The notes beneath the pieces are model-generated. The model was not told where the DNA came from. It saw nothing but the letters and a program-made list of their open reading frames with translations, and ran no database searches. Positions 2,677 through 5,706 of a stretch of DNA of 40,960 bases are shown piece after piece. Numbering within the stretch: the first letter of the stretch is position 1; each line of letters starts with the position of its first letter. A program made the translations under genes and the position numbers. The stretch is from Desulfobacteraceae bacterium (GTDB lineage: Bacteria > Desulfobacterota > Desulfobacteria > Desulfobacterales > SKZT01): contig JAABTQ010000030.1 of the NCBI GenBank assembly GCA_011389745.1, positions 1 to 40,960 of the forward strand, in the 5' to 3' direction.

Positions 2677-3975
2677 ATGTCTGATGAAGCAATTAAATTA
2701 GGCGGAAAAAAGAAAAGCAAGTTTATAGACAAAGTCAAGGAAATACTGCCCGAAGGCGGTAACCTCAATCTTTGTCTGACTTGCGGGGCCTGCTCTTCCG
2801 GATGCCCGGCTACGGGATTGGAAGACATGGACCCGAGAAAGTTTTTGAGAATGGCGGCACTGGGTATGGACGATGAGTTGTTATCATCCGAATGGGCCTG
2901 GATGTGCACCATGTGTCAGCGGTGTATTTATGTGTGCCCCATGAAAATCGATATTCCACAGCTGGTTTTTAACGTCCGGGCCAGCAGGCCCCGGGAAGAA
3001 AGACCCAAAGGAATACTGGGCTCATGTGATATGGCTTTGAGACATGATACCTGCAGCGCCATGGGCGCTTCAGAGGAAGACTGGCAGTTCGTGGTGGAAG
3101 ATGTGGCCGAAGAAGTCCGGGAAAACCAGCCGGGTTTTGAAACCCTTCAGGCACCGATGAACAAACACGGCGCTGAGTTTTTCCTGAATCAGAATTCCAG
3201 GGAACCAGTCACCGAACCGGATGAAATGGTTCCCCTGTGGAAAATCCTTCATCTTGTCGGTGCGGACTGGACTTACGGCAGCAAGGGATGGGCCGCGGAG
3301 AACTACTGCATGTTCCTTGGCGACAACAAGTCATGGGAACATATCGTCCGTGTCAAGGCCAAAGCTGTGGAGGACCTGGGCTGTAAAGTCTGGCTCAACA
3401 CGGAGTGAGGGCACGAATTATTTGCAGTCCGGGCCGGACTGAAAAAATTCAACATTCCTTACAACTTTGAAATTAAAAGCATAATTCAATACTATGCCCA
3501 ATGGGTGCGGGAAGGAAAACTCAAAGTCAATTCCGACTGGAACAAGGATCTGAAGGTAAAGTTTACCGTTCAGGATCCGTGCCAGCTTATTCGAAAGACC
3601 TTTGGTGATCCCGTTGCCGAGGACCTTCGTTATGTGGTGAAAAAAGTCGTGGGTGAAGAAAACTTCATCGACATGACCCCGAACCGCTCCAACAACTACT
3701 GCTGCGGCGGCGGCGGCGGGTTTCTCCAGTCAGGCAGGCCCGAAGCACGGCGTGAGTATGGACGTCTGAAATCCGATCAGATCATCAAAACCGGCGCAGG
3801 TTATGCGATAACACCCTGTCATAACTGTCACGCTCAGATTCATGATCTGAGCGAACACTATGAAGGCGGATGGCATACGGTGCATCTGTGGACATTGATC
3901 TGTTTATCTCTTGGCATTTTGGGAGAAAACGAACGAGAATACCTCGGACCCGATTTGAAGGAAGTCGGTCTATAG
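2677..3975 (+). CDS. Fused HdrC/HdrD-like CCG-domain iron-sulfur protein, selenoprotein (UGA at codon 244)
   Basis: The start chosen is the ATG at 2677, behind a GAGGAG site; a GTG at 2653 is an in-frame alternative. Residues about 30-100 carry two [4Fe-4S] motifs (CLTCGACSSGCP and CTMCQRCIYVCP), as in HdrC. The rest is CCG-type (HdrB/HdrD, DsrK, GlpC family): the first half reaches NTE-UGA-GHELFA, where related proteins read ECGH. The second half has DPCQLIRK, NNYCCGGGGGF and CHNCH, a full CCG motif. The frame stays open from 3409 to the stop at 3973-3975 (432 residues with Sec). HdrD-like subunits carry the cluster that accepts electrons from HdrA and reduces disulfides or passes electrons on. 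Tandem position after mvhD and before metV suggests it links HdrA to MetV/MetF; this is inference. A hairpin follows the UGA as in mvhD. Confidence 0.9.
3406..3408 (+). other. Selenocysteine codon (UGA) in HdrD-like gene
   Basis: TGA within LNTE-U-GHELFAV, at the Cys of the ECGH segment of CCG-domain proteins. The downstream frame continues for 188 codons with intact CCG motifs, so readthrough as Sec explains it better than a pseudogene. Confidence 0.82.
3425..3441 (+). promoter_or_regulatory. SECIS-like hairpin of HdrD-like gene
   Basis: Perfect 6-bp stem CAGTCC/GGACTG with loop GGGCC. The loop begins 22 nt after the UGA, close to the 20 nt seen in the mvhD copy. Unlike that copy it lacks an obvious bulged U. 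Confidence 0.6.
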
Positions 3976-4025: not shown

Positions 4026-4706
4026 ATGATAGTTGCCAAAAGAAAACCCTTTGAAGAAATCAAAGAGATGCTCAAAGGCTACAAAAAGGTTCTCAATGTT
4101 GGATGTGGAACCTGTGTATCCGTATGCCTTGCAGGCGGCGAAAAGGAAGTGGCCATTTTAAACGCCGAGCTGGACATGGCAAGAAATTTGGAGGATGATC
4201 CCATTGAAATCCACGGACAAACCGTCGAACGTCAGTGCGACCGGGAATACCTGGCGGAGCTGGATGATATCATTAAAAAAGAAAAATTCGACGCGTTAAT
4301 GTCAATGGCTTGCGGTGTGGGCATTCAGTTTCTGGCCGAAAGATTCCCCGACATCCCCACCTTTCCGGGAGTGGATACCACGGGTCTTGCCGTCAACCAG
4401 GCCGTGGGATGGTATGAAGAACGGTGCCGTTCCTGCAGCCAGTGTGTACTGGGTATCACCGGAGGCATTTGTCCGATTACCATGTGCGCAAAGGGTCTTT
4501 TTAACGGACCCTGCGGCGGAACCAACAAAGGAAACTGTGAAATCAGCGCGGATCAACCTTGTGCCTGGTTCAAAATACACGAACGCCTGGCTGCACAAGG
4601 CCGCTTGTCCTCCATCAGAAAAATCAATCTTGCCAGAGGCTGGAAAGATCAGATTCCCAGAAACCTGATTCAGCCCGGCTACAAGAAACCCGAAAAGGTT
4701 TCTTAA
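4026..4706 (+). CDS. metV: MetV-like methylenetetrahydrofolate reductase partner, zinc/iron-sulfur protein
   Basis: 226 residues, ATG after AGGAGG. The N-terminal half has GCGTCVSVC followed by an alpha/beta domain. The C-terminal half is the MetV Cys-rich region: ERCRSCSQCVLG, GGICPITMCAKG and NGPCGGTNKGNC, then a conserved basic tail. MetV is the small subunit that pairs with MetF in acetogens and in sulfate reducers using the acetyl-CoA pathway. It is thought to connect MetF flavin to electron carriers. It sits 52 bp upstream of metF and 50 bp after the HdrD-like selenoprotein, consistent with an HdrABC-MvhD-MetFV complex of the type proposed in Moorella. The family is secure; complex membership is inferred. 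Confidence 0.9.
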   Translation: MIVAKRKPFEEIKEMLKGYKKVLNVGCGTCVSVCLAGGEKEVAILNAELDMARNLEDDPIEIHGQTVERQCDREYLAELDDIIKKEKFDALMSMACGVGIQFLAERFPDIPTFPGVDTTGLAVNQAVGWYEERCRSCSQCVLGITGGICPITMCAKGLFNGPCGGTNKGNCEISADQPCAWFKIHERLAAQGRLSSIRKINLARGWKDQIPRNLIQPGYKKPEKVS

Positions 4707-4758: not shown

Positions 4759-5706
4759 ATGAGCATACAAGGAAATAATTTGAAATCAGGAAGCAATTTA
4801 GAAAAGATCCTCAAATCAGGTCAATTTGCTTTTACCGGAGAGCTGGGCCCGCCGAGAGGCACCGACGTTAAAGAAGTTATCGAAAAAGCACAATTTTTGA
4901 AGGGTAACGTGGACTCGGTCAATATTACCGATAACCAGACCGCCGTTGTTCGGATGGCAAGCTGGGCCGCTTCTCTGTTATTGGTTCAGGAAGGACTCGA
5001 ACCCAACTATCAGATGGTATGCCGTGACCGAAACCGTCTTGCCATGCAGGCCGATATCCTGGGCGCCTATGCGCTCGGTATCCGAAACATGCTGTGCCTG
5101 TCCGGAGACCACTGTCAGTTCGGCGACCATCCGGATGCTAAAGGTGTCTTTGATATCGATTCAATGCAACTGATCGCCATGGTCAAACAGATGCGCGATG
5201 ATGCCAAATTTTTGGGCGGTGCGGAAATCCATCATCCCCCCAAAATTTTTATCGGCGCCGCCAGCAATCCTTTTGCCGACCCCTTTGATTGGCGGGTACA
5301 ACGTCTAGCCAAAAAAATCGAGGCCGGTGTGGATTTTATTCAGACTCAGTGTATCTACAATATGGAAAAATTCAGAAAATTTATCCATATTGCCGGCGAA
5401 GAAGGGCTTACCGAGAAAGTGTATATCCTGGCCGGTGTTACTCCTTTTAAGAGTATCGGTATGGCCAAATACATGAAATCCAAAGTACCCGGCATGGATG
5501 TTCCCGATGAGGTCATCAAACGCCTCCAGGGAGTTGAAAAAGGCAAAGTGGCCCAGGAGGGCATCAACATGGCTTGTGAACAGATCGAAGAGTTCAAATC
5601 CATGAAAGGCGTTCACGGCGTACATTTGATGGCCATCGAATGGGAACACAAAGTGCCTGAAATTGCCGCACAGGCTAAGGTACTTCCACGACCCAAACCT
5701 GAATAA
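4759..5706 (+). CDS. metF: 5,10-methylenetetrahydrofolate reductase MetF
   Basis: 315 residues, a TIM-barrel MTHFR of usual length. The N-terminus has the family signature FTGELGPPRG with its conserved Glu. Further along are NITDNQ, then LCLSGDH, FIGAASNPF, FIQTQCIYN and ILAGVTPF. It interconverts methylene-H4F and methyl-H4F using FAD. In a sulfate reducer with MetV and Hdr subunits alongside, it probably works in the reductive or oxidative acetyl-CoA pathway rather than only in methionine synthesis. The start ATG follows a CAGGGG purine stretch. It is the last gene of the cluster, and repeats follow it directly. Confidence 0.95.
   Translation: MSIQGNNLKSGSNLEKILKSGQFAFTGELGPPRGTDVKEVIEKAQFLKGNVDSVNITDNQTAVVRMASWAASLLLVQEGLEPNYQMVCRDRNRLAMQADILGAYALGIRNMLCLSGDHCQFGDHPDAKGVFDIDSMQLIAMVKQMRDDAKFLGGAEIHHPPKIFIGAASNPFADPFDWRVQRLAKKIEAGVDFIQTQCIYNMEKFRKFIHIAGEEGLTEKVYILAGVTPFKSIGMAKYMKSKVPGMDVPDEVIKRLQGVEKGKVAQEGINMACEQIEEFKSMKGVHGVHLMAIEWEHKVPEIAAQAKVLPRPKPE

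Follow-up and report, generated by a model that had tools for sequence, protein, structure and literature searches.

An HdrD-like gene on the forward strand of the window (the whole stretch of Desulfobacteraceae DNA analysed, 40,960 nucleotides in length), at positions 2677–3975 with its ATG at 2677 and a TAG stop codon at 3973–3975, encodes a 432-residue fusion of HdrC and HdrB that resembles HdrD and DsrK. By comparison with homologous sequences, the UGA at 3406–3408 is decoded as selenocysteine (Sec; U244, in the context NTE-U-GHE), and the product belongs to the known GlpC/UGH family of selenoproteins. The new feature is the location of this residue: by profile alignment, U244 is placed at Cys581 of EtfD (Cys78 of HdrB) and His246 at His583 of EtfD, an arrangement in which Sec is probably beside the one remaining noncubane cluster. 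On balance, we lean towards a reading in which Sec is a reactive residue facing this cluster and the fusion is the HdrBC-equivalent arm of an HdrA–MvhD–MetVF complex.

The in-frame UGA alternates with cysteine codons

Under the standard code, the gene is split into open reading frames of 251 and 156 codons. The initial annotation had instead described a TGA at 3406 within NTE-U-GHE, followed by 188 intact codons that include a full CCG motif. On re-reading, each of these statements holds, and all 188 codons after the TGA are sense codons. It had also called for an alignment of the ECGH column across homologues. We examined the codon at residue 244 in relatives. Of 96 genomes, the source genome included, at least 80 have a match to the HdrD-like protein at E 1e-60 or better, and among the matches listed, all those with at least 71% identity contain a TGA. 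The best matches at 80 loci from named genomes have TGA (76 loci) or TGC (4 loci) at this position; cultured relatives represented among these loci are Desulfopila aestuarii, Desulfonema magnum, Desulfoluna limicola and Desulfospira joergensenii. Over all loci, 157 distinct rows comprise 127 with TGA, 29 with a cysteine codon (TGC or TGT) and one with TTC; a serine or alanine codon is found in none of the 157. For these counts, duplicates were merged when the 61 nt from codon 244 onwards were identical (as in the neighbour counts below), and matches that did not cover residues 240–250 or had less than 60 nt downstream were left out.

Other readings of the codon were considered and rejected. 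A stop, a sequencing error or a pseudogene is at odds with the presence of TGA in 127 distinct sequences and with the frame open beyond it, and decoding as tryptophan is at odds with relatives that have cysteine, not tryptophan.

Two further copies in the family are irregular. One Sec copy (L123, 6001–7296; the same reading in L089) has an extra in-frame TAG at the Lys229 column, for which an error, decay of the gene and an amber-encoded residue are all conceivable. The other (L173, 6102–7283) accompanies an intact Cys form as a second copy. It reads phenylalanine (TTC) in place of the ECGH cysteine and also contains one stop codon and, in the CCG glycines, a small deletion, and for these reasons looks like a decaying gene; it was counted neither as Sec nor as Cys and forms a separate state in the tree described below.

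A hairpin and a Sec machinery accompany the UGA

A bSECIS-type hairpin is located at 3425–3441 of the forward strand, with arms CAGTCCG (3425–3431) and CGGACTG (3435–3441) enclosing a GGC loop (3432–3434), the distance from the UGA to the loop being 23 nt. This is the GC-rich hairpin noted previously, and it is kept in close Sec rows only: all seven pairs form in 106 of the 115 close Sec rows and at least six of seven in 115/115, as against 0/25 close Cys rows. Pair 25:29 covaries among the same 115 Sec rows (GC 75, TA 35, GT 3, AT 1 and a GG mismatch in 1). The median energy of the best local hairpin is −10.3 in 127 Sec rows versus −6.0 in 29 Cys rows (Mann–Whitney p 2.7e-13, a value that is only indicative because related rows are not independent). 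The same genome contains selB, selA and tRNA-Sec, with one match each above the cut-off. The original proposal of a selenoprotein is thus borne out by the alternation of Sec and Cys, by the hairpin in Sec rows and by the co-occurrence of SelA, SelB and tRNA-Sec. GlpC-type UGH selenoproteins are expected to have a bacterial SECIS-type hairpin and relatives with Cys in place of Sec, and both are found here.

The history of the residue was followed in a tree of 140 rows (rows spanning residues 60–370, merged at 90% identity from 177). The tree contains 4 changes of Sec label, which is the minimum forced by the starred branches of this quick tree, whose changes carry no direction; with the decayed copy of L173 as its own state, there are 5 changes in all. 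This interchange of Sec with other rows (4 label changes among 140), and the occurrence of both Sec and Cys forms in several genomes (G073, G046 and G083), are what would be expected if the protein were a mere electron-transfer relay and Sec a selectively weak replacement of Cys that changes little. We consider this highly improbable: Sec is kept in 112 of the 140 tree rows together with a conserved hairpin, which would be costly if useless, and the lack of Ser or Ala at the Sec column in 157 distinct rows also argues against it.

In a distant subfamily (L066–L077, 35–38% identity), all 12 loci taken likewise show TGA at the Sec column, together with a hairpin particular to the subfamily, and 8 of the 12 loci are within 300 nt of mvhD. 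Paralogues in the source genome (L003–L005) combine a single complete CCG motif with ECGH.

Domain architecture and family membership

The protein is composed of an HdrC-like part with two [4Fe–4S] motifs and a CCG part, in agreement with the HdrD-like architecture first assigned to it. Pfam CCG matches residues 297–388 (whole-protein E 9.8e-11), and the C-terminal CCG motif is complete (C302, C342, C343, C381 and C384). Among rows that span residues 60–370, with identical sequences merged, 157 distinct rows have Sec or Cys at 244; E243, G245, H246 and the five cysteines of the CCG motif are invariant in all of them, and the same holds for the eight ferredoxin-type cysteines, apart from one row at C33. 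A second complete CCG motif, expected of HdrB/HdrD proteins with two noncubane clusters, is absent from the protein, which has no Cys at 127–210 or at 247.

The best curated models are HmcF (183.6 bits), TmcB (169.1 bits) and DsrK (112 bits), yet all three scores are far below the respective cut-offs of 750, 735 and 400. The HdrB/HdrD model TIGR03288 scores 16.4 bits against a cut-off of 345.15, and the curated GlpC models NF008369 and TIGR03379 score 36.1 against 278 and 27.1 against 279.9.

Assignment to the GlpC/UGH family comes from other features. In 2006, Zhang et al. reported 5 members of a selenoprotein family named 'Fe–S oxidoreductase (GlpC)', in a study that checked candidates with a bacterial SECIS search (PMC1794560); a later review lists the family again (PMC9312934). 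A 2026 review describes the family as PTHR43551 with the motif UGH, mentions the operon and counts it among functionally largely uncharacterized selenoproteins (PMC13188914). The protein analysed here shares with that family an in-frame UGA that immediately precedes GH within a CCG protein, the description as an Fe–S oxidoreductase, the occurrence in Deltaproteobacteria and an operon with hdrA and frhD (mvhD), both of which lie directly upstream of our gene. The published operon, glpC–hdrA–frhD–frhG–frhA (PMC1794560), has frhG and frhA, whereas the next two genes downstream here are metV and metF. A published member of the family is WP_174406253.1. 'GlpC' is the name used in COG, and the curated GlpC model gives our protein 36.1 against a cut-off of 278. 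A further relative by description is hdrD4 of Desulfobacterium autotrophicum HRM2, a Sec-containing HdrD (PMC2702500): it has HdrC and HdrB domains, no transmembrane part and Sec, and its host is also a sulfate reducer.

A fusion of hdrC and hdrB in a MetVF–Hdr-type cluster is on record, reportedly also from some sulfate reducers (PMC5736913), and the HdrCBA–MvhD–MetVF enzyme of Moorella has been described (PMC8760232). With the GlpC Sec family in PMC1794560, all three elements (family, fusion and cluster type) are therefore already in print. Five Sec genes are listed for D. multivorans, none of them a Sec-containing HdrD (PMC5109826), and no Sec-containing HdrD is named in the passages of PMC8691401 and PMC5109826 consulted for proteomic evidence of the protein. 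In the open-licence literature, we found no description of a structural role for the Sec of this family, and no paper that joins family, fusion and cluster type or that assigns the Sec a position relative to the known cluster ligands.

By alignment, Sec is located on a vacated cluster-ligand position

The AlphaFold2 model of the HdrD-like protein (pLDDT 87.8, pTM 0.86) has EtfD of Mycobacterium smegmatis (9ojn) as its best fold match (Z 24.0, 368 residues, r.m.s.d. 3.0), followed by HdrB chains (Z 19.7–20.7), and Foldseek also ranks EtfD first. No DsrK chain is among the fold and structure matches listed, an absence that proves nothing. EtfD resembles our protein in the CxH of its N-terminal CCG repeat and in the ligands of its noncubane cluster, but differs from it in that it is membrane bound, keeps a linear [3Fe–4S] cluster in the N-terminal repeat and has Cys where Sec stands. 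This linear cluster has C581 and C584 among its ligands, and His583 caps the noncubane cluster (PMC13083937).

In the HMMER alignment, E-C244-G-H246 is opposite T-C581-P-H583 of EtfD. The same register is obtained by HHalign against EtfD-like proteins of related genomes, both the 8 with CPHC and the 18 without it (template CPHG). Through an alignment of EtfD-like proteins with HdrB, U244 is carried to Cys78 of HdrB, the first Cys of the N-terminal CxxC. When the family is compared directly with HdrB-like proteins by HHalign, the register differs by one residue from that of the EtfD route and the match is weaker (Probab 94.7 and E 6e-8, versus 99.3); this alignment was set aside. In the AlphaFold2 model, U244 directly precedes helix 245–257, just as C381 precedes helix 382–394.

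The position of U244 is the one N-terminal cluster ligand that survives. Residue 206, opposite the Cys538 position of EtfD-like proteins, is Ala in this protein and Ala, Gly or Thr in close Sec rows, and at position 247 the close Sec rows have E, V, I, S or A. As the other cysteines of the N-terminal cluster are lost, Sec stands at the sole remaining ligand position of a cluster that has disappeared; as H246 matches His583 of EtfD, a ligand of the surviving noncubane cluster, Sec probably lies close beside the noncubane site. The initial annotation had Sec replacing the ECGH cysteine at a noncubane site. The replacement is supported, and the site can now be refined: U244 is on the ligand position of the lost cluster (EtfD C581, HdrB C78), and it is H246 that is on the noncubane ligand position (His583).

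This geometry bears on whether Sec itself ligates the noncubane [4Fe–4S] cluster, where it would complete the coordination of the catalytic iron or exchange there, such that substrate would displace a selenolate rather than a cysteine thiolate. U244 is on a cluster-ligand position of HdrB and EtfD, its neighbours E243, G245 and H246 are invariant, and it is only two residues from the EtfD position that ligates the noncubane cluster. However, Cys81 and Cys234 are the ligands that can be displaced in HdrB, whereas U244 maps via EtfD to Cys78; an equation of U244 with Cys81 was rejected on these alignments. Moreover, it is His that caps the cluster in EtfD, and this residue is kept here as H246 in 157/157 rows. 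We regard direct ligation as possible but unlikely, and a reactive selenol as the more likely role of Sec than that of a displaceable ligand (Cys81).

A selenol could also act away from the cluster, as a redox-active residue that forms a selenenylsulfide with a resolving Cys of the same protein. The candidate is C211, which is kept in 117/117 close Sec rows and 25/25 close Cys rows. It is Gly in 12/12 rows of the distant Sec subfamily, and the other non-cluster cysteines (117, 126, 236 and 409) are each kept in at most two of these 12 rows. A resolving Cys is therefore not general, and we hold a selenenylsulfide to be very doubtful.

Gene neighbourhood

The gene order at the locus is hdrA–mvhD–hdrD(Sec)–metV–metF, all on the forward strand. 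The contig starts inside hdrA, of which the 3′ part remains (10–2226; 738 codons open from the first ATG), with Pyr_redox_2 and Fer4 domains; the product of this gene, cut by the contig end, scores 589.5 bits (E 9.1e-177) with the NCBIfam model HdrA2, below the cut-off of 1100. The adjoining mvhD (2226–2660) has an in-frame TGA of its own at 2271 (CCDY-U-GYSAAD) with a hairpin after it, and matches Pfam FlpD at 2e-48 with TGA read as U; Sec in MvhD/VhuD is already known (PMC13188914). Downstream of the fusion are metV (4026–4706; Pfam DUF5981, methylene-THF reductase C terminal, 1.5e-31) and metF (4759–5706; Pfam MTHFR, 4.4e-39).

One cluster thus holds hdrA, mvhD, hdrB and hdrC (as a fusion), metV and metF, the gene set of Type IV MetVF–Hdr complexes. 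The set of parts is that of the Type IV MetVF–HdrCBA–MvhD methylene-THF reductase of Moorella. Unlike in Moorella, HdrC and HdrB are fused and contain Sec, mvhD contains Sec and there is one complete CCG motif.

A second Sec copy in the same genome (L038, 7431–8726, reverse strand), 78% identical and also with a TGA, sits after hdrA–mvhD–metV–metF and not between mvhD and metV; an additional gene matching Pfam MTHFR lies upstream of it. Among relatives, we find five arrangements: hdrA–mvhD–hdrD–metV–metF, hdrA–mvhD–metV–metF–hdrD, hdrA–mvhD–hdrD, hdrD–(metF-like)–hdrA–mvhD–metV–metF, and none of these genes nearby. Neighbours were counted in the window, L038–L097 and L107–L186, with L001–L037 left out for their short flanks. 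At least 4 kb on both sides is available at 58 of 99 close Sec loci; within 4 kb, 31 of these have HdrA or MvhD, 17 have MetV or MetF and 25 have none. Full flanks are available at 17 of the 25 close Cys loci, where the corresponding numbers are 12, 0 and 5, and HdrA or MvhD is present at all five of the 12 distant Sec loci that have full flanks.

A fixed operon with metVF was accordingly rejected as a general rule. With 25 of the 58 close Sec loci lacking all of these genes, and with unrelated genes downstream at two such loci (parA, parB, lytB and a fapA-like gene among those scanned at L130; Bax1-I-, lpxK- and RNB-domain genes at L180), a fixed HdrA–MetVF partner is not general.

A model for the Sec arm

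We propose the following model, which builds on what the sequences show, namely the Sec coding, the fold family, the ligand residues and the gene order. SelB and the hairpin right after UGA 3406 would direct Sec insertion. The N-terminal ferredoxin part would carry two cubane [4Fe–4S] clusters and the C-terminal CCG repeat (C302, C342, C343, C381 and C384) one noncubane cluster, while the N-terminal CCG repeat would have no cluster of its own, only E-U/C-G-H remaining. His246 probably takes the role of His583 in EtfD and caps the noncubane cluster. Sec, on the vacated position, would face that cluster, and its selenol or selenolate may meet a disulfide or thiol partner, or tune the cluster.

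At the locus in the window, the HdrD-like protein is probably the HdrBC-equivalent arm of an HdrA–MvhD–MetVF complex. Electrons from (or to) methyl-/methylene-tetrahydrofolate would travel by way of MvhD and the flavin of HdrA, and the Sec arm may exchange one half of the electrons with a thiol/disulfide or an electron carrier. In the boldest version, Sec would itself ligate the noncubane cluster of an Hdr-type subunit, an encoded selenolate serving as the exchangeable ligand of a disulfide-cleaving iron in the arm of a methyl-THF-oxidizing, flavin-bifurcating complex; we think this rather improbable.

The GlpC selenoprotein family has stood in lists for twenty years. If its Sec performs ordinary tuning, the present finding reduces to a routine annotation correction. 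Placing the Sec on the EtfD/HdrB ligand map nevertheless turns the family into a concrete question, namely whether selenium is on, or next to, a noncubane Fe–S cluster, and pairs of Sec and Cys forms within one genome are natural controls for it. A role for this Sec would also bear on the second partner of MetVF–Hdr complexes.
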